Source: a virus. From it: DNA of 21,001 bases. Under the pieces are notes generated by a model, which saw nothing but the letters and a program-made list of their open reading frames with translations, was not told the origin of the DNA and did no database searches. Shown here piece after piece: positions 2,052 to 12,452 of the stretch. The DNA is taken from positions 1-21,001 of IMG/VR virus record IMGVR_UViG_3300017763_003495; one strand, written 5' to 3'. Position 1 is the stretch's first letter, and the number at the start of each line of letters is the position of its first letter. Both the position numbers and the translations under genes were made by a program.

Positions 2052-2521
2052 TGATGGAAGCTCAAGCAAAATCATACACAATCACAGTTGAAGATCTAGG
2101 AAGTTTTGATCTAGACGAAGATAGATCAATTGCACCATCAATTGAATTTGCTTTAAAGCAAAGTGGTGTTGCAGATGCAGTAGTTGATCAAAACGAATTT
2201 AATTCATCTATGGTAGAAGTTGTAACAACAGCTACACAAGACGAGCTTGAAAGAGCTTTACAAAGAGACGATTTACAAGCAGAGGTATCTATGAACGAAG
2301 ACAATGAAGAGATGGTACATTCACCAGCCGGTCAGTTCAAGCAAGATGATTTCACTTCAGGCGTTAAAGCACAAAAGAAATTCAAATACGTTCCAGCTAA
2401 ACATGGAGACAATCCATTAACCAACGAAGACGAAGCTGTGACAGAAGATCGCTTTGAGGCTTTGATGAGTGAATATAAATCATTTGTTGCTGAAAGCGAC
2501 TCAAAAAAAAAGACTCAATAA
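2051..2521 (+). CDS. Uncharacterised acidic phage protein, upstream half of a probable frameshift pair
   Basis: This 156-residue, strongly acidic protein starts at an ATG overlapping the previous stop by 1 nt. Residues 1-90 look folded (SYTITVEDLGSFDLD onward); the rest is polar. Near the end is SEYKSFVAES, which resembles the prohead protease recognition pattern. The frame ends with codons TCA AAA AAA AAG ACT CAA TAA. The A-AAA-AAG heptamer at 2506-2512 is a classical -1 slippery site, and the -1 frame stays open to 3093 without a convincing start of its own. The gene therefore probably makes two products: this 156-residue protein and a fusion of about 347 residues. Function is unknown; its position suggests a structural or assembly role. 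Confidence 0.7.
   Translation: MMEAQAKSYTITVEDLGSFDLDEDRSIAPSIEFALKQSGVADAVVDQNEFNSSMVEVVTTATQDELERALQRDDLQAEVSMNEDNEEMVHSPAGQFKQDDFTSGVKAQKKFKYVPAKHGDNPLTNEDEAVTEDRFEALMSEYKSFVAESDSKKKTQ
2506..2512 (+). promoter_or_regulatory. Predicted -1 ribosomal frameshift site A-AAA-AAG
   Basis: Nine A residues (2503-2511) followed by G create A AAA AAG in the zero frame of the 2051 gene, the same heptamer used by E. coli dnaX. Slipping back one base continues as KKDSIISEAGQ into the downstream frame. The zero-frame stop is only three codons further (2519-2521). I see no strong stem-loop or upstream Shine-Dalgarno stimulator at the expected distances. A homopolymer length error in the assembly is the main alternative. 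Confidence 0.5.
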
Positions 2522-3093
2522 TCAGTGAAGCTGGACAAATAGCACAAATCCTACAAAGGGATTACGGCAATCATGTGGCACGTACACAGGCAAAGATCCA
2601 AGATGATTTTAAAGCGGCAGGTGTAGAAGAACCATTCAACATAATGTCAGAACCGTTGTTTACCAAGTCAGCAGAATCAATTTTTCGTATGGGTAGACGT
2701 GGAGGCGGACAACCAGGCCTAAAAGCAATTGGTGGAATTGAAGACCTAACACGTAATCTAAAAGATATACAGTTGGGTGTGTCCATAGCAGGTTTCCAAC
2801 CACAGGCACTAAAACAGCTGGATCCAAACGTGATCAAAAACAGAATAAAATCCATTCCATCAGGAGAGCCATTTAGTAACATGGAAGGATACATTGAAAC
2901 TAAAGAAGATGCTTACAAAATAGTACGTATTAGAAATTTGTATTTGAACATATTGTCGCAAATGGAACTATCTAGTAGATTAGATCCAGGCAAAGCAAAA
3001 GACATACCAGGCAAAGTAGGCGGTGCATTTGATAGAGCGGCACAGGCAGTTGGCACAAACACTGGTAACTATCAATCTATAGTAGATCAATAA
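2512..3093 (+). CDS. Downstream half of the frameshift pair, uncharacterised
   Basis: The frame is coding-like from just after the slippery site (DSIISEAGQIAQILQ) to the TAA at 3091-3093, giving about 193 residues. There is no in-frame ATG before 2644. A GTG at 2575 exists but has only a weak AAAGGG about 14 nt upstream, and the open frame extends well before it. I therefore read this as the C-terminal extension of the 2051 gene made by -1 frameshifting, or else one gene broken by an indel. Visible features are a Gly-rich basic stretch near FRMGRRGGGQPG, a polar helical region, and no membrane segment. No family recognised. Non-coding DNA follows it, so it ends this transcription block. Confidence 0.65.
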   Translation, partial: DSIISEAGQIAQILQRDYGNHVARTQAKIQDDFKAAGVEEPFNIMSEPLFTKSAESIFRMGRRGGGQPGLKAIGGIEDLTRNLKDIQLGVSIAGFQPQALKQLDPNVIKNRIKSIPSGEPFSNMEGYIETKEDAYKIVRIRNLYLNILSQMELSSRLDPGKAKDIPGKVGGAFDRAAQAVGTNTGNYQSIVDQ

Positions 3094-3118
3094 ACAAGCA
3101 TTAAGACACAGTTAAGGA

Positions 3119-3168
3119 AACCACCCGCGAGGCGGAGCGGCCAAGACACCCATGATTTCGACCGCGAA
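3119..3168 (+). other. GC-rich patch with RNA-folding potential in an intergenic region
   Basis: In an otherwise AT-rich genome this stretch is markedly GC-rich. CCGC (3125-3128) can pair with GCGG (3132-3135) across a 3-nt loop, or CCGC (3162-3165) can pair with GCGG (3137-3140), so competing hairpins are possible. No long frame covers it and there is no T-tract, so it is not a standard terminator. It may be a structured leader or small RNA; I cannot match it to a known RNA family. Confidence 0.3.
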
Positions 3169-3326: not shown

Positions 3327-4421
3327 ATGTTTAACAAGATAGATATTAACAACATTGAAATAGTTGAAATTGAAGCAACAACATATTGTAATGCAGGATG
3401 TCCTTATTGTGCTAGACACGATCATGGCACTAGTAAAACAATAGAGTCGTTGCCTTTGAGACATATTCCGTTTGAAGTGTTTAATCAATTACGAGAAGAT
3501 TTAGATTTTACATCCCGCAATAAATCAAAAGATGTAGAGCTTTGGTTTGTTGGAAATTTAGGAGATGTAATAATGCATCCACAGTTGCCACAGATATGGG
3601 AGTACTGTGTTAAGAATTTTGGAAAAATAGAAGTAGAAACTAATGGCGGTATTAGACCTATTAAGTTTTGGCAAGAAGCAGGTAGAATCAGCAAAGAAGA
3701 AAGCCAAAAAGCCAGTGACCCAGCTACAATGACTTTTGCTATTGATGGATTAAAAGACACTAATCACTTGTATAGAAAAGGAGTAGATTGGGATAGACTA
3801 ATAGCCAATGTTGAAGCCTACATCAATGCTGGTGGCGATGCTACTTGGAAGTATTTGGTCTTTGAGCATAACAAACATCAAGTAGATGAAGCAGAAAGAC
3901 TTGCTAAGAAATTAGGATTTACAAAGTTTCTTCCTCAGTATTCGACCAGATACAGTGACGACATTTATGATGATGAACAGATTGAATTAAGAGAAAAAGA
4001 AGGAAATTTTTTATCATCTGATGTTGATAAAGTAATTGAAGAAGAAGCACGTAGATTGAATATTGATTTAAAAAATCCAACTAATGATATTGAATGCAAA
4101 TCTTTTGTAAAAAATAAAATATACATAAACTCACATGGTAGAGTTTGGCCATGCTGTTGGCATTCGTTAGAATATGACACAACTAAACTTATGTTACAAA
4201 AAACTGAACCATGGATGATACCTTTTATTGAAAAAAGATTTAATGACTATACCAAATATTCATTAAAAGAAATTGCCAGTTCACGACTTTGGAAACAAAT
4301 GACTGATGCATGGGAAACTGAAAAAAGAAATAATGATGGAAGTTTAAAAATGCAGTTGTGTTACGATAAATGTTCAAATAGTAAATGGAAGTTAACTTGT
4401 AATATATCTAAACGTGATTAG
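3327..4421 (+). CDS. Radical SAM enzyme with SPASM-like C-terminal cysteines
   Basis: The 364-residue protein has the radical SAM motif CxxxCxxC at Cys21, Cys25 and Cys28 (TYCNAGCPYC), which binds a 4Fe-4S cluster and S-adenosylmethionine. The radical SAM barrel follows, and the C-terminal third has further cysteines at 257, 276, 277 (GRVWPCCW), 345, 349 and 358. That pattern fits a SPASM or twitch-type auxiliary cluster domain, typical of enzymes that modify peptides or proteins and of some other maturases. No precursor peptide is evident next to it; the following gene (146 residues) is too large and not precursor-like. The gene has its own late promoter, so the enzyme is likely made during virion assembly. 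Substrate is unknown; modification of a virion or host protein is speculation. Confidence 0.85.
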   Translation: MFNKIDINNIEIVEIEATTYCNAGCPYCARHDHGTSKTIESLPLRHIPFEVFNQLREDLDFTSRNKSKDVELWFVGNLGDVIMHPQLPQIWEYCVKNFGKIEVETNGGIRPIKFWQEAGRISKEESQKASDPATMTFAIDGLKDTNHLYRKGVDWDRLIANVEAYINAGGDATWKYLVFEHNKHQVDEAERLAKKLGFTKFLPQYSTRYSDDIYDDEQIELREKEGNFLSSDVDKVIEEEARRLNIDLKNPTNDIECKSFVKNKIYINSHGRVWPCCWHSLEYDTTKLMLQKTEPWMIPFIEKRFNDYTKYSLKEIASSRLWKQMTDAWETEKRNNDGSLKMQLCYDKCSNSKWKLTCNISKRD

Positions 4422-4423
4422 TC

Positions 4424-4431
4424 CGTAAATA
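4424..4431 (+). promoter_or_regulatory. Late promoter -10 octamer (CGTAAATA)
   Basis: CGTAAATA keeps the TAAATA core but differs from the T4 consensus at its first two bases. It ends 5 nt before ATG 4437, matching the spacing of the other late motifs, and no Shine-Dalgarno sequence is present. Confidence 0.5.
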
Positions 4432-4436
4432 TTTTT

Positions 4437-4877
4437 ATGTTACGAGATGAGTACACAAAAATCTTTTATGACATTGTTCGCGAGACAAAAGATATTCATT
4501 CCCTAGAACTGCCTATTCATCTCGAAGCATACATCGTGATGTTATTATCATCATTTGTGGACAAGCCAGACTTCTTACCCAAGTTATCCTTTGCAGAAAA
4601 TTTATTAAAGTTAAACAAATATAGTTCATTACCTGCAAAGGATTTGGGTGATGTTTGTTTGTTTGTAACCGGTGTATTCCCCACGTACAACGCCTCTAGT
4701 GGTTTAGATGTGTCTTACTATACATTTGTTGGAAAGAGTAGCTACAGCCACGTTAAATTTGGTTTAAACGGGGAATTATTTGCTGAATTATCAGATAAGT
4801 TTGAATATTTGTGTAGATTCATTAATATGTCTATTGGAATAGACAATAGAAACCAGTATTTTAATCTACGTCATTAA
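4437..4877 (+). CDS. Conserved-looking protein of unknown function beside terminase
   Basis: This 146-residue soluble protein begins at an ATG 5 nt after a TAAATA core. It is mostly helical, with a distinctive central segment (LGDVCLFVTGVFP, then YYTFVGKSSYSHV) that looks like a conserved core around residues 66-105. There is no signal peptide, membrane segment or nucleotide-binding motif. It lies between the radical SAM gene and gp17, each with its own late promoter, so no operon partner can be deduced. I cannot assign a family with confidence; a soluble assembly or host-interaction factor is possible. Confidence 0.75.
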   Translation: MLRDEYTKIFYDIVRETKDIHSLELPIHLEAYIVMLLSSFVDKPDFLPKLSFAENLLKLNKYSSLPAKDLGDVCLFVTGVFPTYNASSGLDVSYYTFVGKSSYSHVKFGLNGELFAELSDKFEYLCRFINMSIGIDNRNQYFNLRH

Positions 4878-6521: not shown

Positions 6522-8468
6522 ATGGCAGTAGATTATAACATAGTAGCTGAAAAAATATTTCGTATTCTAAAAGGACGTGGTTATTCTGTACAATTATTTG
6601 ATGCAGAAGATGGCAATGAAATTGTTGATCCAAAAAAAGCAAGATTCTTTTATATACAGGAGCCTAATTTAATGGTAAATCTAAGTATAGAAAATAGTGA
6701 AGTAAAGCTACATAAAGGACCAGAATCTATAGATGAAGTAGCATCTACAGTGGCTTCTTTAAAGAAATTAGCCAGAGATAACTTATTAGACTTTGATTTA
6801 CGTGAATTTGGAAGGGAAATTAAGCCTAAAAATTATAGTTTTAGGTTAAATAACAATATGGAACAGATTAAAACAGAAGGCTATTCAGCCATTGCAGGCA
6901 CGGTAAAAACTAGTACTCAAAAACTAGAAAATGCCAAGCTATTAATTAAACACAGATCTCCAGTGAATGAAGAAATTCCTGGTGCAAGATCAAGAAACAT
7001 TTCAGCATTATACATTGAAAACGGTCAAGGTGAAAGATTTAAATATCCTTTCATTCACTTGAATGGTGCAAGAGCGATGACACGTCACGTACAAAATGGT
7101 GGTAACCTTTACGATGAAGTTGGTCAAAGTATTGTAAACATGAGTGAACAAATGAGTAAGATCAGAGAAGTATTAAATGTAATGAGACGTTCTCCTGCAA
7201 TACAAGAACAAGGTGGTTCTGTTTATAATTCTATGTTAACAAGACAAGACAGATTAAGAGAAACGATCAAAAAATTAACTACTATTGAAGGTTACAACAA
7301 CTATGTAGAAAATTTTGCTAGACACGAAAGCAAAGAATATGATCAAGACACTCTAAACAAACTAAAAGAAAAATTTACAGTTAGTTCAATGGACAACAGA
7401 GTTGCTGAACTACTTCCAATGATACAAGAAATACATGATGAAGAAATCAATGACAATGCGTCATTAAGAAATCGTATCGCAAAAGAATTAGAAAAAGGTG
7501 CAATAGAAATGCATCCTAGATCAGCAGGACAATCAGAGTATGCACCATCAAACATAATGAAGTTTAATGATAGCAAAGCTGAGTTGGCTTACAAGATTTC
7601 AGATTTAGCCGCAAGAGCTAAAAACGATGAAGTTTCTGTATTCTTAGCTAGAATGTCAGACAAACTAACAGGCATTGACAAAGACCCAATGGTGCAAGAT
7701 GATGTTGCAACTATTAGATCAATTCTTGCAAAAGTAAAAGATCCAGCAGAACAAAAAGATGTAGCTAGTAATGAATCAAAAGATTTACCAGAGCTATCAA
7801 AATTAGATGAAAGCTTCGATAGAATTTTAGGTATGTATTCAGATACAATGAATTTTGAAGATGCTGAAACTTTAGCTAAAGCAAAAGACAAGTTTACTTA
7901 CATTGGTAAAAATGTAAATCCAAAAGTAAGTTACAACAGTTGGTTAAAAGATATTAAATCAAAAGAAATTGATGATCCACAATTAAAAGATAGAATTCAA
8001 AACAAAGGTGCGTATGGTGTATCAGGTGATAACCATGCTAAATGGTCACAAGAATATAGAGCCTACAAAGCAGAAGCTGAAGGTGAAACAGAAGCACCAG
8101 TTGAAACAAGTGATATACCACAAGGTGACTTTTCAGAAAATGATGCGGCAGATTTAGAGCATGATTTTGAAGAGTACAGAGATGCAGTACATGATTCAAT
8201 CAAAACAGATGCTCATTACCAGGGTAAATCAAAAGAAGAAATTATTGATATGTTAAGAAAAGAAGCAGACTCAATTGGATATGCAGATGTATCAGACGGT
8301 GACAGACACCCATCAGAACCAGACTGGTTAAACAGAATTGCTGATGAAATGTCAAAAGAAGAAGCTTCACCGGAAACTGTTAATGCAGAAAATATGCAAG
8401 GTACAGATAAATTACCACATCATTCAGATGAATTAGCTAGAATGGTAGCATTATCAGGAATTAGATAA
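6522..8468 (+). CDS. Large uncharacterised late protein (648 aa), probably virion-associated
   Basis: The gene follows gp17 behind its own late promoter, where T4 has the tail sheath gene, but the sequence does not look like gp18. Residues 1-230 look folded (FRILKGRGYSVQLFD; a conserved-looking FKYPFIHLNGARAMTRHVQ near residue 170). Residues 230-460 are rich in long charged helices. The tail from about 500 on is acidic and probably disordered. There is no signal peptide, membrane segment or nucleotide-binding motif. An in-frame ATG at 6858 carries a TAAATA core 5 nt upstream, so an N-terminally shorter form (536 aa) could exist. Late expression and size suggest a structural or packaged protein; no family assigned. 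Confidence 0.85.
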   Translation: MAVDYNIVAEKIFRILKGRGYSVQLFDAEDGNEIVDPKKARFFYIQEPNLMVNLSIENSEVKLHKGPESIDEVASTVASLKKLARDNLLDFDLREFGREIKPKNYSFRLNNNMEQIKTEGYSAIAGTVKTSTQKLENAKLLIKHRSPVNEEIPGARSRNISALYIENGQGERFKYPFIHLNGARAMTRHVQNGGNLYDEVGQSIVNMSEQMSKIREVLNVMRRSPAIQEQGGSVYNSMLTRQDRLRETIKKLTTIEGYNNYVENFARHESKEYDQDTLNKLKEKFTVSSMDNRVAELLPMIQEIHDEEINDNASLRNRIAKELEKGAIEMHPRSAGQSEYAPSNIMKFNDSKAELAYKISDLAARAKNDEVSVFLARMSDKLTGIDKDPMVQDDVATIRSILAKVKDPAEQKDVASNESKDLPELSKLDESFDRILGMYSDTMNFEDAETLAKAKDKFTYIGKNVNPKVSYNSWLKDIKSKEIDDPQLKDRIQNKGAYGVSGDNHAKWSQEYRAYKAEAEGETEAPVETSDIPQGDFSENDAADLEHDFEEYRDAVHDSIKTDAHYQGKSKEEIIDMLRKEADSIGYADVSDGDRHPSEPDWLNRIADEMSKEEASPETVNAENMQGTDKLPHHSDELARMVALSGIR

Positions 8469-8488
8469 ACCAAATCTTAGGAGAGTTT

Positions 8489-8668
8489 ATGAAATTACCA
8501 AAGTTTAAAATGCCAAAAATGCCAAATGTTGGTAAGATGGCCAATGAAGCAAAAGGTAAAGTAACAGGCGCAGTATCAGGAGCAACTGATAAAGTAAAAG
8601 GCGCAGTATCAGGAACATCAAAAAAAGTTACTGGTGCAATTAAGAACTTAAATCCATTTAAAAAATAG
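8489..8668 (+). CDS. Small basic protein with three 11-residue repeats
   Basis: A 59-residue frame starts at ATG 8489, 5 nt after AGGAG (8479-8483), a good ribosome site. The sequence is Lys-rich with no Cys, Trp or Tyr. Residues 24-34, 35-45 and 46-56 are imperfect 11-mers of the form KVxGAVSGxxx, encoded by visibly related 33-nt units. Eleven-residue repeats with alternating Lys and small hydrophobic residues, as in synuclein or LEA proteins, often form extended amphipathic helices that contact membranes. The N-terminus (MKLPKFKMPKMPN) is basic and Pro-rich. It lies just downstream of the 648-residue late gene and 1 nt before the promoter of the B12 module. Function unknown; membrane or nucleic-acid binding is inference. 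Confidence 0.75.
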   Translation: MKLPKFKMPKMPNVGKMANEAKGKVTGAVSGATDKVKGAVSGTSKKVTGAIKNLNPFKK

Positions 8669-8669
8669 A

Positions 8670-8698
8670 TTGACTTCGGAGCAACAAAAAGGTATACT
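8670..8698 (+). promoter_or_regulatory. Sigma70-type promoter of the B12 module (TTGACT-17-TATACT)
   Basis: The -35 hexamer TTGACT (8670-8675) and -10 hexamer TATACT (8693-8698) each differ from consensus by one base and are separated by an ideal 17 bp. Transcription should begin near 8705, just ahead of the riboswitch. The host RNA polymerase could therefore transcribe this operon early, without the phage late factors. Confidence 0.8.
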
Positions 8699-8705
8699 AA
8701 AGAAT

Positions 8706-8820
8706 AATTAGTACCGAAATGCATGGTGGGAAATCAAGGTGTAATTCCTTGGCTCTTCCAGGAACCGTAAAGTCGGAGCGCCACCCGGTACAGTCCGCTG
8801 TCGAATGAAGGCCTGGAAAA
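8706..8820 (+). promoter_or_regulatory. Cobalamin (B12) riboswitch
   Basis: The leader carries the order of conserved elements of Cobalamin-family riboswitches. P1 pairs GTACCG (8711-8716) with CGGTAC (8786-8791); P2 pairs GGTGG (8725-8729) with CCACC (8781-8785). GGGAA at 8728, the GGTGTAATTCC hairpin (stem 8735-8739 with 8747-8751), the ACCGTAAAGTC segment and GGAGCGCC follow. TTCCAGG (8756-8762), at the L5 position, is perfectly complementary to CCTGGAA (8812-8818), as expected for the L5-L13 kissing loop that switches expression on B12 binding. No terminator follows, so control is probably at translation or by RNA folding near the first gene. High B12 would be expected to reduce expression. 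Confidence 0.85.
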
Positions 8821-8878
8821 GTCTAGTTCTACAATGTAAAGTTAACAGTGGCAATACGGAAACGTAAATAAAACTGTT

Positions 8879-9403
8879 ATGAGTACAACAAAAAAAACAT
8901 TATTAATGATATTATACTACTCAGGCATTCTTGCTTTAAGTAGATTGATACCACATCCACCTAACTTCACACCAATCATAGCCATGGCTGTTTTCATGCC
9001 ATATATGATCCGTGATGTTTATACAGCGATGTTGATTCCATTAGTAGCGATGTTTATATCTGATTTATATTTGGGTATGCATTCATCGATGTTTTGGGTT
9101 TATGGAAGTATAATGTTATGTACACTATTAAGTACATCAACATTAAAACAAAAATCCTTAACACATTTGGCATCAGTATCGGTAGGATCAGCAGTAATGT
9201 TTTATGTGATAACAAATTTTGCTGTATGGTTGACGTCTACAATGTATCCAAAAACATTAGAAGGATTAGTTATGTGTTACACAATGGCTATTCCATTTTT
9301 TCAAAATACATTCGTGAGTACTATTTTATATGTTTCTGTATTATTTGCAATATATGAAACAGCTAAAAGGAGTTATTCATGGCTAAAAAGGCAATACTTG
9401 TAA
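8879..9403 (+). CDS. DUF6580-like membrane protein, putative B12 uptake component
   Basis: The 174-residue protein has five to six hydrophobic segments and the conserved patch SRLIPHPPNFTPIIAMAVF near the N-terminus, plus SDLYLG, WVYGS, VITNFAVWL and MYPKTLEGLV. These match the DUF6580 family of small integral membrane proteins, which look like substrate-binding subunits of vitamin transporters. It is the first gene after the cobalamin riboswitch and overlaps the BtuB-like gene by 25 nt, so both are regulated together. Its likely place is the inner membrane, perhaps moving cobalamin or a precursor after BtuB brings it to the periplasm. No energising ATPase gene is nearby, so it would need host partners or act alone. 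There is no clear Shine-Dalgarno sequence; a CGTAAATA lies 8 nt upstream. Family match fairly sure, substrate inferred. Confidence 0.8.
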   Translation: MSTTKKTLLMILYYSGILALSRLIPHPPNFTPIIAMAVFMPYMIRDVYTAMLIPLVAMFISDLYLGMHSSMFWVYGSIMLCTLLSTSTLKQKSLTHLASVSVGSAVMFYVITNFAVWLTSTMYPKTLEGLVMCYTMAIPFFQNTFVSTILYVSVLFAIYETAKRSYSWLKRQYL

Positions 9404-11244
9404 TACTACTATTCTTTACATGGGGATTTATTTTTAATTCCGTAAATGCAGAAGAAACAAATAATTGGAATTCAGAATCTTTATATGAAAAAGATGACAC
9501 ACCAGTTGTCACTATAACAGTTTACGTATTAAGAGATCCTACATCAAAAACAACAGAATCAATGAGTGTAGATTACGTTGACAGTTATACAATACAAAAC
9601 ACAAACACACAAGACACAGTACAAGCAATTAAAAGAATTACCGGACTGACAGTTATACAATCAGGATCAACAGGACAACAAACGTCAGTATTCATGAGAG
9701 GAACCAATTCTAATCATACTATGGTTGCAATAAATGGTGTCGCAATAAAAGATCACTCTACAACAGGTGGATTGCACGACATAGGTTCTGATTTTATCAA
9801 ACACGTTACCGCAATACAAGTTGTAAAAGGTTCACAAGGAACACTATTTGGTGCAAACGCAGTTGGTGGTGTAATTAATTTTATTACTACAGGCAAGTAC
9901 GAAAACTCAATTTCAACAACTGTAGGATCTAACAATACAAAAAGTTTAACTTTAAAAGTACACAAATATATCAACAATCATTCTATTAGTTTTACAGCAG
10001 ATGGAACAACTTCAGATGGTATATCAGTTGCACCAACTGGAACTGAAAAAGACGGATTTGATGCAAACAATTTTACATTAGATACTGAAAGTAAATATGA
10101 TGGTTTTGATTTAAGAACCACAATAATGAAACGAACTAGTGATGCTGACTTAGACAGCGGCACATCAGATGACTTAGATTACACATCCAAAAGTGATATG
10201 AATCTTTATCAAGTTGGTAGCAAAATTGATAACTCATTAGGTTTTAGTAATTTTACATTCTCTAGAACAGAATACGATAGAGAATATGTTAATGGTACTG
10301 AAATTGATACATATGATTCCAATTCAAATACTTTTATTTTTACTAACACAATACAAAATGAAGAAATTGATTTTACCCCAGGAATTGAATATGAACAGTT
10401 TGACGGTACGTTTAATAACACAGGATCATACACATCATCTGTAGACAAAGAAGGAAACAATGCATCTGTTTTTTTAAACAGTAATGTCAATGTTGGAGAA
10501 GACTTTTTATACTCAATAGGTATAAGACATGACAATCCAAGTTTGTTTGGCGACTACACAACTTATAGATTGGGTGGAGTATATACCGTAACAAATAACT
10601 TTAAATTAAAAAGTAATTACACAACAGCAGTAAAAACACCTACGTTATACGAACTGTACGGGGCAGACAGCTATGGTTACAGTGGTAATGCTAACTTACA
10701 ACCAGAAGAAGCACAAACAATTGATATAGGGTTTGAATATAAGTTTAACAATCATTCGTTGGACTTTGTATATTTTGATACAGACTTAGATAATATGATC
10801 ACATATGGTAATAGTACATATTCTAATGCATCAGGAAAATCCAATAGACATGGTGCTGAAATAAAAACAACATCAACGATAAATGAAAATGTATTTCTTA
10901 GAAATGGATTGACTTGGACGATTGCACAAGACAGCAATAACAAACAAGTTACAAGAAGACCTAGGTGGCAATCATTTTCAGCAGTTGATTGGATACTAGG
11001 TAAATCAAACAATTCACTTGAATATGTGTATATGGGAGAACATCTAGACATCGATTCATCAACTTATGCTACAATTACTAAACCAGCAGTAGGTGTAGCC
11101 AACTTTCATACCAAATATGAAGTAGCAAAAGATACCAATATTGTGTTGTCTTTAAACAATATAACAGACAAAACGTATGAAAGACCAGACGGATATAACC
11201 AAGATGGACGTAATTTTATGTTAACCTTTAAAAAGAACTTTTAA
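9379..11244 (+). CDS. btuB: BtuB-like TonB-dependent vitamin B12 receptor
   Basis: The 621-residue product is full-length for BtuB (E. coli: 614). It has a signal peptide (hydrophobic core LVILLFFTWGF, probable cleavage after SVNA at residue 24), a TonB-box-like DDTPVVTITV (39-48), a plug domain (about 70-170) with SVFMRGTNSNHTMVAINGV and FGANAVGGVINFIT, and a 22-strand-type barrel ending in the C-terminal Phe used for outer-membrane assembly. BtuB binds cobalamin outside the cell and passes it to the periplasm using TonB energy. The start at 9379 has AAAGGAG 6 nt upstream and lies inside the previous gene. The cobalamin riboswitch upstream supports B12 as ligand. A weaker alternative is a related receptor for another corrinoid. 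Confidence 0.92.
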   Translation: MAKKAILVILLFFTWGFIFNSVNAEETNNWNSESLYEKDDTPVVTITVYVLRDPTSKTTESMSVDYVDSYTIQNTNTQDTVQAIKRITGLTVIQSGSTGQQTSVFMRGTNSNHTMVAINGVAIKDHSTTGGLHDIGSDFIKHVTAIQVVKGSQGTLFGANAVGGVINFITTGKYENSISTTVGSNNTKSLTLKVHKYINNHSISFTADGTTSDGISVAPTGTEKDGFDANNFTLDTESKYDGFDLRTTIMKRTSDADLDSGTSDDLDYTSKSDMNLYQVGSKIDNSLGFSNFTFSRTEYDREYVNGTEIDTYDSNSNTFIFTNTIQNEEIDFTPGIEYEQFDGTFNNTGSYTSSVDKEGNNASVFLNSNVNVGEDFLYSIGIRHDNPSLFGDYTTYRLGGVYTVTNNFKLKSNYTTAVKTPTLYELYGADSYGYSGNANLQPEEAQTIDIGFEYKFNNHSLDFVYFDTDLDNMITYGNSTYSNASGKSNRHGAEIKTTSTINENVFLRNGLTWTIAQDSNNKQVTRRPRWQSFSAVDWILGKSNNSLEYVYMGEHLDIDSSTYATITKPAVGVANFHTKYEVAKDTNIVLSLNNITDKTYERPDGYNQDGRNFMLTFKKNF

Positions 11245-11250
11245 TTTTTT
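11228..11250 (+). terminator. Weak candidate terminator after the BtuB gene
   Basis: TTAAAA (11228-11233) can pair with TTTTAA (11239-11244) around a short loop, followed by six T residues (11245-11250). The stem contains only A-T pairs and overlaps the stop codon, so termination would be inefficient at best. Confidence 0.25.
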
Positions 11251-11253
11251 AGG

Positions 11254-11282
11254 TTGACATTTCCGTCATAAATAGATATACT
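11254..11282 (+). promoter_or_regulatory. Sigma70-type promoter of gp32 (TTGACA-17-TATACT)
   Basis: A perfect -35 (TTGACA, 11254-11259), a 17-bp spacer and TATACT (11277-11282) form a strong host-type promoter. It shares spacer length and -10 sequence with the B12-module promoter, so both may belong to one early class. Start is expected near 11289. Confidence 0.8.
11267..11274 (+). promoter_or_regulatory. Late-type octamer (CATAAATA) inside the gp32 promoter
   Basis: CATAAATA lies in the spacer of the sigma70-like promoter. It would start transcripts near 11280, about 108 nt before the gp32 ATG, unlike the leaderless arrangement of the structural genes. T4 gene 32 is likewise transcribed at more than one stage, late included, so dual control is plausible. 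Confidence 0.4.
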
Positions 11283-11314
11283 AGTGTTTAATGTTAGTAA
11301 TGATATTGAACACT
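11283..11314 (+). promoter_or_regulatory. Hairpin in the gp32 mRNA leader
   Basis: AGTGTTTAA (11283-11291) pairs with TTGAACACT (11306-11314) as a 9-bp stem with one G-U pair and a 14-nt loop. It lies at the predicted 5' end of gp32 transcripts, ahead of unstructured repeats. T4 gp32 represses its own translation by nucleating at a leader pseudoknot and spreading over unstructured RNA; the layout here is analogous. Confidence 0.5.
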
Positions 11315-11320
11315 ATTATA

Positions 11321-11380
11321 TACAAACATAGGCAAACATAGGCTAACAAAGGCTAACAAAGGCTAATATAGGCAAAGGAG
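11321..11380 (+). repeat. 10-nt tandem repeats in the gp32 leader, running into its RBS
   Basis: Six consecutive decamers align in register: TACAAACATA, GGCAAACATA, GGCTAACAAA (twice), GGCTAATATA and GGCAAAGGAG. The last one contains the AAGGAG ribosome site, 7 nt before the ATG at 11388. The array is rich in A and unlikely to fold, which suits a cooperative single-strand-binding operator for gp32 itself. Confidence 0.8.
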
Positions 11381-11387
11381 AAATAAT

Positions 11388-12452
11388 ATGGCGACTTTAG
11401 CAGAAATAAGAGCGAAGCTATCAGAACAAGAAACAAAACAAAAAGGTGGTAGCACAGTAGGGGATAATGCAATTTATCCATTCTGGAATATTCCAGAAGG
11501 CACAACATCAACACTAAGATTTTTACCAGACGGCAATAAAGATAATACATTCTTTTGGCAAGAAAGAGCTATGATCAAATTACCATTTCCTGGTATTAAA
11601 GGTTCACAAGATACAAAACCTACTCTAGTACAAATTCCTTGTATGGAGATGTTTAATGAACCATGCCCAATTTTATCTGAAGTAAGGACTTGGTTTAAAG
11701 ATCCTGCACTAGAAGATATGGGAAGAAAATATTGGAAAAAAAGAAGTTACATTTTCCAAGGTTATGTAGTTAATTCTACATTAGACGAACAAGAGACACC
11801 GGAAAATCCAATTAGACGTTTTGTGATTAATCCGTCAATCTTTAACATTATCAGATCAGCATTAATGAATCCTGATATGGAAGATCTACCAACTGATTTA
11901 GAATCAGGTAGAGATTTTAAATTGACTAAAACACAAAAAGGTGGCTATGCAGATTATTCAACATCTACTTGGTCGTTCAAAGCAAGATCATTAAGTGAAT
12001 CAGAAAGAGGTGCTATAGACCAGTATGGTTTGTTTAATCTTTCAGACTTTATGCCAAAGAAACCTTCAGCAGAAGAACTTGGTGTAATGCAAGAAATGTT
12101 TAAAGCATCTGTAGATGGTGAACTGTATGATCCAGATAGATTTGGTCAATACTATAAGCCAGCAGGTTTTAATTCTAGAGGTGGAAACACATCTAGCTCT
12201 GCTAGTACAACAACTACAGTTAACAAAACTGTTGAAACTCCTGTTGCTACTACACCTGCCCAACCTGTACAAACAGAAGCAGTACAACCAGCAGTACAAC
12301 CAGCAGTAGCTACTCCAGTAGCACCTGCACCTGCACAGGTAACTGTTAATGAAACAGTAACAGCAACGGCAACTGACACAGCTAAACCGGCCGCTGGAGT
12401 ATCAGCAGACGACATCTTAGCAATGATCAGAAGTAGACAAGCTAACAAATAA
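11388..12452 (+). CDS. gp32: Single-stranded DNA-binding protein gp32
   Basis: The 354-residue protein resembles the gp32 family that coats ssDNA during replication, recombination and repair. Residues 1-20 form the basic N-terminal region for cooperative binding. The core (about 25-240) contains FWNIPEGTTSTLRFLPDG, KYWKKRSYIFQGYVV and DFMPKKPS. The zinc site of T4 (His-Cys-Cys-Cys) seems reduced: only Cys85 and Cys93 are visible. After residue 250 comes a Thr/Ala/Pro/Val-rich linker of about 80 residues, ending in SADDILAMIRSRQANK rather than the acidic tail of T4 gp32. The start follows AAAGGAG by 7 nt. The leader (promoter, hairpin, decamer repeats) suggests autogenous translational control. 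uvsX follows. Confidence 0.9.
   Translation: MATLAEIRAKLSEQETKQKGGSTVGDNAIYPFWNIPEGTTSTLRFLPDGNKDNTFFWQERAMIKLPFPGIKGSQDTKPTLVQIPCMEMFNEPCPILSEVRTWFKDPALEDMGRKYWKKRSYIFQGYVVNSTLDEQETPENPIRRFVINPSIFNIIRSALMNPDMEDLPTDLESGRDFKLTKTQKGGYADYSTSTWSFKARSLSESERGAIDQYGLFNLSDFMPKKPSAEELGVMQEMFKASVDGELYDPDRFGQYYKPAGFNSRGGNTSSSASTTTTVNKTVETPVATTPAQPVQTEAVQPAVQPAVATPVAPAPAQVTVNETVTATATDTAKPAAGVSADDILAMIRSRQANK

Follow-up and report, generated by a model that had tools for sequence, protein, structure and literature searches.

Layout and phage origin of the cassette

The stretch of DNA analyzed here, called the window throughout, is a 21,001-base virus fragment (IMG/VR record IMGVR_UViG_3300017763_003495, positions 1-21,001), in which a leader RNA with an AdoCbl-II riboswitch precedes a gene for a DUF6580 membrane protein and an overlapping gene for a BtuB-like TonB-dependent receptor. 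It is likely that the window thereby carries a phage-encoded, B12-regulated cobalamin import cassette with a BtuM-like DUF6580 protein and a BtuB-like receptor. Such a cassette would probably cover both membranes, through the receptor in the outer membrane and a BtuM-like importer in the inner membrane. Its elements are as follows.

8670..8698, + strand: sigma70-like promoter TTGACT-17-TATACT, 10 of 12 matches, 12 bases 5' of the aptamer
8711..8791, + strand: AdoCbl-II (cobalamin) riboswitch aptamer, RF01689, 93.0 bits, with L5 docking bases at 8757-8760
8795..8851, + strand: 3' regulatory domain of the leader, with covariation, conserved with SAR11-order loci
8795-8800 with 8846-8851, + strand: pairing of strand A with strand B within the 3' regulatory domain
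8814-8817, + strand: L13 docking bases, pairing with L5
8824-8828 with 8840-8844, + strand: inner stem of the 3' domain
8844..8878, + strand: start-codon hairpin, strand B AACAGU (8844-8849) with strand C ACUGUU (8873-8878), abutting the ATG
8879..9403, + strand: DUF6580 gene, 174 aa, PF20221; predicted all-helical membrane protein with a fold like BtuM and the S-components of energy-coupling factor (ECF) transporters
9379..11244, + strand: BtuB-like TonB-dependent receptor gene, 621 aa, 25-base overlap with the DUF6580 gene

The B:C pairing of the start-codon hairpin and the B:A pairing are mutually exclusive. Both open reading frames (ORFs) run uninterrupted from ATG to stop, and no intrinsic terminator was found in 8400-11450. 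The ratio of nonsynonymous to synonymous substitution rates (dN/dS) between the window and the closely related contig L004 (95% DNA identity) is 0.118 for DUF6580 and 0.112 for the receptor, and against the more distant L162 it is 0.285 and 0.281; the terminase gives 0.079 against L166. Both genes of the cassette are kept functional by purifying selection, in line with a preliminary description of this DNA, by which all parts look intact. Its near-consensus promoter survives only in part: the 10 of 12 match and the position agree with it, but such sites are not enriched in the region (12 found, 15.6 expected), so that only position speaks for the promoter at 8670.

The module is real and phage-borne. 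In the window it is flanked by genes for terminase, head, connector, gp32-like single-stranded DNA (ssDNA)-binding, UvsX-like, UvsY-like and helicase proteins; the entire window lies, at 99.8-99.9% identity, inside two longer contigs, G001 (67.8 kb) and G002 (58.2 kb); a third, G003 (46.1 kb), begins within the receptor and holds the remainder of the window. With phage genes on both sides and longer contigs containing the window, the description of one co-directional, phage-borne cassette is borne out, and its host-type genes inside a phage genome make these candidate phage auxiliary metabolic genes. Related phages carry the module as well. A scan of IMG/VR with the L13 leader motif yielded 14 contigs, including G001 and G002, with RF01689 confirmed by Rfam in seven and the leader recognized by alignment or reading in the other seven. 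The order riboswitch-DUF6580-receptor is found in nine of the 14 (in L166 the receptor runs past the stretch end), two have the riboswitch and receptor without DUF6580, and three end shortly after the riboswitch, at a contig or stretch end. The cassette adjoins terminase or gp32 homologues in the window, L162 and L166, lies 3' of a helicase-like gene in L010 and L163, and lies 5' of a thyX-like gene in L165 (helicase and thyX by eye). L162 is part of a 242,646-base phage record, where the cassette occupies approximately 142,165-144,686 among phage genes. Among 50,697 annotated phage records there was no match to DUF6580 and none to the leader; the receptor had nine matches, none reaching 60% identity; four carry an annotation as B12 receptor or transporter and the other five carry none. 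A first aptamer DNA pattern had picked out 11 viral stretches, two of which are contigs of the window's own population, and RF01689 was absent from the nine of these 11 that were scanned.

Riboswitch and leader RNA

RF01689 (AdoCbl-II) matches the plus strand at 8711-8791 with 93.0 bits against a gathering threshold of 36.5 (E 6e-23, model positions 1-81). A cobalamin riboswitch had been predicted at this position, and the B12 class is correct, but the family then named, RF00174 (Cobalamin), is rejected at 15.7 bits, below its gathering threshold of 31.5.

The leader is under RNA-level constraint. In an alignment of nine phage and 30 bacterial leaders (39 rows), 94.8% of 1394 cells can pair as the named structure requires, a level that none of 500 shuffles reached, and versions of the structure slid along the alignment drop to 23-47%. 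One L5-L13 docking column pair is U-A in 30/30 bacterial rows and A-U in 9/9 phage rows. This clean compensation also suggests a separate lineage for the phage leaders. Other aspects of the alignment are weaker: pairs changed on both sides number 14 against 11.1, which 12 of 500 shuffles reach, the outermost L5-L13 docking pair is broken in 15 of the 39 rows, and pair four of the A:B helix in 21. Folding of single sequences lent no support, the unconstrained fold of the leader barely beating its shuffles (z -1.56, with 11 of 200 doing as well) and the lowest-energy fold leaving the outer aptamer helices of the family unformed. A conserved upstream mini-ORF at the leader CAAUG was also considered and rejected, the AUG being missing in several bacterial rows and in the phage leader L165.

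The BtuB-like receptor

The receptor matches the Pfam TonB barrel (PF00593, 119.1 bits) and plug (PF07715, 59.3 bits), both over cut-off. Its best NCBIfam model is TIGR01779, 'TonB-dependent vitamin B12 receptor', at 223.7 bits over nearly its full length; the BtuB model gives 182.5 bits and the best non-B12 model 93.9. Searched by sequence against solved structures, it finds BtuB first at 112 bits, with the next other receptor at 57. A signal peptide, a TonB box and a C-terminal Phe fit the sequence by eye. Judged by its sequence, the receptor is BtuB-like: it has plug and barrel in common with the BtuB proteins of E. coli and Salmonella, its best match among solved structures, and is approximately 24% identical to the Salmonella protein. 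It also matches PHROG 5687 (function unknown) at 110 bits, so TonB-receptor-like phage proteins are already present in that collection, with no function given, whereas DUF6580 matches no PHROG. A SusC-type receptor is reported for a marine megaphage in the available text of PMC9723777, so that phage proteins resembling TonB receptors have precedents.

The receptor of L165 (minus strand, 9117-10721, 534 aa), from the riboswitch-receptor-only arrangement, matches the window receptor in two separate segments (1-351 and 526-621) and the SAR11 receptor of L124 over almost its full length. In Pfam at E<=0.001 its plug is matched and its barrel is not.

DUF6580 as a candidate inner-membrane B12 transporter

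The second protein had been described as DUF6580-like, and PF20221 (DUF6580) indeed matches it at 159.4 bits against a cut-off of 27. To judge its fold we compared the AlphaFold2 (AF2) model with 419 chains, those ranked highest by Foldseek. The best structural match is BtuM with cyanocobalamin (8c7p), with Z 13.4, a root-mean-square deviation of 2.9 and 158 of 174 residues aligned, and ranks 1-16 are all S-components or CbiM (identified in part by title), Z being 8.9 at rank 16 and then falling to 7.5. The model thus has the predicted ECF S-component fold of BtuM. Like BtuM it would be solitary, that is, EcfT-less: EcfT/CbiQ (PF02361) was found in none of 19 records (12 bacterial and seven phage, of unstated completeness), with controls positive in 10 of 14. 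Searching a viral fold library returned no match at E<=0.001.

The bacterial relatives of DUF6580 used for comparison are the best 80 of 264 from a scan with the PHPPNF motif, and conservation of PHPPNF is partly due to that selection. In the loop after Asp62, position 68 is His in 61 of the 80 and Tyr in 16; Cys133, present in 72, is located away from this loop. BtuM has the residues H28, D67, C80 and Y85 (available text of PMC6072759), and DUF6580 has H26, D62, H68/Y and Y75 in a like order, a suggestion only, since the comparison is one of order with no residue-level alignment and H26 falls inside the scanned motif. The BtuM of Thiobacillus denitrificans (8c7p), as far as the accessible part of PMC6072759 describes it, resembles DUF6580 in predicted fold and size, in that no ECF module is found with it and in its co-occurrence with BtuB-like receptors. 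It differs in having no detectable sequence relation and in its essential Cys80, which has no assigned equivalent in DUF6580, where His68 or Tyr stands in the loop. According to the same text, many B12-auxotrophic Gram-negative bacteria possess BtuB and lack BtuCDF, and BtuM was assayed by B12-dependent growth of a metE btuF btuC deletion strain.

Does DUF6580 keep company with cobalamin riboswitches? Of the 80 bacterial DUF6580 loci, 40 were examined with Rfam, and 30 of these had a cobalamin-class riboswitch. Because those 40 were partly picked for having receptors, the association was rested instead on the SAR11-order (Pelagibacterales) set of 297 genomes, not chosen by gene content. AdoCbl-II is over cut-off in 28 of the 297, and at all 28 loci the sequence downstream of the riboswitch matches a TonB receptor. 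DUF6580 is present in 26 of these 28 genomes, and in 25 it lies within 5 kb, 2.0-3.9 kb from the riboswitch. At the looser level of RF01689 at E<=0.001, DUF6580 occurs in 61 of 64 SAR11-order genomes with the riboswitch versus 16 of the 233 others (Fisher p 3e-44, a value overstated because related genomes are not independent). The BtuM-like fold, the genome association, the lack of EcfT and the residue order together lead us to regard DUF6580 as probably an inner-membrane B12 transporter of the solitary S-component type, similar to BtuM.

Five other phage contigs (L039-L043) have a DUF6580 gene at 56-57% identity and no riboswitch over threshold. In L039 and L042, whose ORFs were read, DUF6580 comes after genes that by eye resemble those of helicases or clamp loaders, and no receptor adjoins. 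On the DUF6580 tree, these contigs represent a separate capture of the family.

SAR11 relatives and the likely host

The SAR11 cassettes (L124, L066, L117, L125 and the 28 loci) use the same riboswitch family with the same 3' domain, and 26 of the 28 loci align over at least 84 bases at 71-89% DNA identity. They differ from the phage cassettes in several ways. Where read, the SAR11 order is riboswitch-receptor-DUF6580, unlike the phage order riboswitch-DUF6580-receptor, which is also that of the bacterial locus L061; the phage L5-L13 pair is flipped relative to SAR11, and phage DUF6580 falls in another branch.

In the receptor tree, seven phage receptors, forming two groups, share one clade (100/100) with 11 SAR11-order receptors, all of the latter from AdoCbl-II loci, and strongly supported branches force two changes of phage label. 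The two phage groups branch beside the 11 and not inside them, so the tree indicates exchange between phage and SAR11 and does not give its direction. The bacterial set of this tree was cut to 18 rows (L071, L100 and L110 are absent); L142 and L148 were dropped as short, L139 and L140 as coming from the same genomes as L125 and L124, and L003, L004 and other contigs of the window's population are not included. The DUF6580 tree likewise has two phage groups and at least two changes, one group being the window type and the other L039, L042 and L043, which join SAR116.

A permuted two-piece tmRNA (transfer-messenger RNA) with the identical tag ADENLALAA is encoded in G003 (L032:9306-9626) and in the 242-kb record (L181:12238-12557), the latter copy scoring 152.8 bits against the alphaproteobacterial tmRNA family. 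Taking the receptor clade, the cassette relatives and the tmRNA together, the host is most likely an alphaproteobacterium and probably SAR11.

What the imported vitamin would serve

Which enzymes would benefit from the vitamin? A B12-dependent ribonucleotide reductase (RNR) or methionine synthase had been proposed, and as phage enzymes neither is upheld. The window's phage population encodes class Ia NrdA (1066 bits) and NrdB (448.6 bits), both over NCBIfam cut-offs, and the 242-kb relative likewise has class Ia NrdA and NrdB over cut-offs, which contradicts a phage NrdJ. The phage thymidylate synthase is ThyX, an enzyme not known to use B12. The MetH reactivation domain (PF02965) is absent from four of four phage records, as is mutase; no B12-binding domain is over cut-off in 12 phage records, most of them fragments, and PF02310 has no match at E<=0.001 in 10 of these 12. 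The contigs L168 and L169 encode radical S-adenosylmethionine (SAM) proteins with a partial B12-binding domain under cut-off (23.0 and 20.7 against 32.1 bits), and one of the two genes sits approximately 1 kb 5' of the riboswitch. The classified RNRs of the cassette phages need no B12, so the demand must lie elsewhere, and host B12 enzymes are the most likely users of the vitamin during infection. Among the 12 bacterial genomes examined via loci, NrdJ is over cut-off in six and mutase in four, and the MetH reactivation domain is found in none.

How the switch may work

Strand B (A[A/G]CAGU) is able, in each of the nine phage leaders, to pair with either strand A or strand C (ACUGUU), and strand C ends 0 to 3 bases 5' of the start codon (0 in seven of nine). 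When strand A is blocked in the energy model, the B:C hairpin forms at a probability of 0.96-1.00 in 9/9. When L13 is held open instead, the model still prefers B:C in eight of nine leaders and A:B in none, and it therefore does not settle the sign of the switch. The env8 class-II switch has the same aptamer class as the window. As the available text of PMC10907184 describes it, env8 has in common with the window leader the L5-L13 kissing interaction, but its ribosome site lies in the P13 loop, whereas in the window the start codon is approximately 60 bases downstream behind a separate hairpin; in env8, ligand binding represses translation. By analogy with this class-II precedent, repression by B12, giving the higher import under B12-poor conditions that the preliminary description envisaged, is a plausible default, and the leader geometry would also allow activation by the ligand.

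A mechanism can be put together from these parts. The AdoCbl-II leader would sense cobalamin, with L5 of the aptamer pairing with L13 of the 3' domain, and sensing would control translation of the DUF6580 and receptor genes. During infection the host TonB system would power the outer-membrane receptor, and DUF6580 would pass the vitamin across the inner membrane in place of BtuCDF. The leader and receptor are ones that SAR11 B12 cassettes also have, and the B12 would most likely go to host enzymes. A broader proposal, which we put forward tentatively and rate somewhat short of an even chance, is that DUF6580 fills the gap of an inner-membrane B12 importer in SAR11, SAR116 and other bacteria that lack BtuCDF, and that large phages of Alphaproteobacteria, probably of SAR11, captured it at least twice and joined it to a receptor, gaining a two-membrane route that would sustain the B12 supply during infection despite a B12-free RNR, under a B12 switch with a swapped docking base pair.

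Weighing the evidence

A number of observations weigh against a B12 import cassette or against parts of the proposal built on it. The receptor lies far under the equivalog cut-off of TIGR01779 (223.7 vs 599.7 bits) and its AF2 model has a predicted local confidence (pLDDT) of only 28.5, too low to bear on a putative B12 site; for these two reasons we name it BtuB-like rather than BtuB, while the plug, the barrel and the leading TIGR01779 match agree with the full-length BtuB-like receptor first described. The DUF6580 model was built from five sequences with pLDDT 75.5, and a Z of about 13 can be common for helical bundles. Foldseek alone places S-components at a template modeling (TM) score of about 0.5, none at E<=0.001; a profile of the five phage DUF6580 proteins finds no PDB sequence at E<=1, so no sequence homology with BtuM was detected by that route, and the Pfam ECF families give no match to DUF6580 even at E<=10. 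FecCD, the BtuC family, is matched in seven of the 12 bacterial genomes (24-28 bits, frames of about 270 residues), four of the seven exceeding the cut-off of 26.5, so that a BtuC there is doubtful but not strictly absent. No TonB receptor lies within 1.5 kb of 46 of the 80 bacterial DUF6580 loci, some of which are cut by contig ends. The DUF6580 gene and the receptor differ in history: the window DUF6580 branches apart from its SAR11 partner-gene counterparts, which makes the cassette a mosaic. On the demand side, domain searches of the phage records found no cobalamin enzyme over cut-off, and four tested SAR11 AdoCbl-II genomes (G007-G010) are without NrdJ, mutase or MetH over cut-off, although three of the four have another protein with a B12-binding domain over cut-off. 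Finally, the start-codon hairpin is the default fold, which could make the ligand an activator.

How far do other explanations accommodate these points? The cassette could be real and ligand-activated, the bound aptamer docking L13, strand A taking strand B and the start codon being freed, so that the phage would import B12 when some is already present. Strand B can pair with A, or with C directly before the ATG, blocking A in the energy model gives B:C with near certainty, and L13, about 60 bases from the start codon, makes direct masking of the ribosome site as in env8 impossible; yet with L13 open folding lends A:B no support, and env8 represses translation upon ligand binding (available text of PMC10907184). 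We consider activation unlikely, but by a degree that keeps it a serious contender. DUF6580 might instead handle another substrate, such as a corrinoid precursor or another cofactor, its place beside BtuB-like receptors having some separate cause. ECF S-components bind a range of vitamins, the DUF6580 family is widespread beyond B12 loci (the 46 of 80 without a nearby receptor), and five phage contigs have DUF6580 without a riboswitch over threshold, the two that were read having no receptor; against this stand its tie to cobalamin riboswitches in SAR11 and the position of BtuM at the head of the structural list, and we regard a different substrate as rather improbable.

Still less probable is that the receptor serves phage competition, replacing or blocking a host surface receptor against superinfection, with B12 import incidental. 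BtuB is a known receptor of other phages, and two contigs have the riboswitch and receptor without DUF6580, but riboswitch and transporter-like partner are kept together in nine of 14 contigs, with three of the 14 cut too early, and receptor dN/dS is near 0.1 between close relatives. It is similarly quite improbable that the cassette feeds a phage-encoded B12 enzyme, whether NrdJ, MetH or a cobalamin radical-SAM protein: the two contigs with a partial B12-binding domain, one of them about 1 kb before the riboswitch, favor it, but the class Ia RNRs of the window's population and the 242-kb relative and the missing PF02310 (10 of 12) and PF02965 (four of four) in records that are mostly fragments argue the other way. 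Mis-assembly of host DNA into a phage contig is ruled out in practice, and its probability is negligible, with phage genes on both sides, the same junctions in G001, G002 and contigs of several assemblies, the same neighbors in the 242-kb phage record and a base-pair flip specific to phage leaders.

Relation to known systems and implications

In the open literature, taken without most subscription papers and all of bioRxiv, we found no phage B12 riboswitch or B12 uptake cassette, and no paper on DUF6580. One parallel is the glutamine riboswitch of the marine phage Melnitz, where a phage that infects streamlined marine bacteria likewise has a metabolite riboswitch; it differs in its ligand and in controlling tmRNA rather than a transporter (available text of PMC9004378). 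For pelagimyophages, the accessible part of PMC7029224 reports an absence of riboswitches. Virioplankton with class II RNR are, like the cassette phages, tied to B12, but they depend on a B12 RNR, whereas the two cassette phages classified have class Ia; their authors raise the possibility that these phages control or increase the uptake of B12 (accessible portion of PMC10547690). An import cassette of the kind proposed here would provide a concrete genetic basis for that published guess. A phage with its own vitamin sensor could tune gene expression to the vitamin status of its host. B12 is scarce in the surface ocean, and the DUF6580 association offers a testable importer candidate for bacteria that rank among the most abundant in the sea.

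Downstream border and other observations

A promoter-like site on the + strand at 11254..11282 (11 of 12 matches) marks the downstream border of the cassette, and 3' of both lies the gp32-like ssDNA-binding protein gene (11388-12452). The leader of this gene contains, at window:11315-11376, a 22-base stretch in five overlapping copies with an exact 10-base spacing, AACAAAGGCT-like, which might be an autoregulatory binding array.

In a second cassette setting, G004 (L034), the receptor gene is immediately followed by genes for a ring-hydroxylating dioxygenase alpha-like protein and an FAD/NAD oxidoreductase, with an FTR1 iron permease gene approximately 15 kb away. G003, from the window's population, encodes Fe-S cluster assembly (SUF) proteins (L032:10442-10864 and L033:958-2385, 2388-3125 and 3442-4653), with SufB at 860 and SufC at 354.5 bits, both over cut-off, SufS just under (471.2 vs 475.1) and a SufE-like protein well under (55.5 vs 160); the 242-kb relative has ORFs resembling these SUF genes by eye. 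A domain search identified one radical SAM protein in the window (3327-4421), and G310 (L182-L184) has at approximately 198,800-220,000 a long run of ORFs, many of them radical SAM/SPASM-like by eye only.

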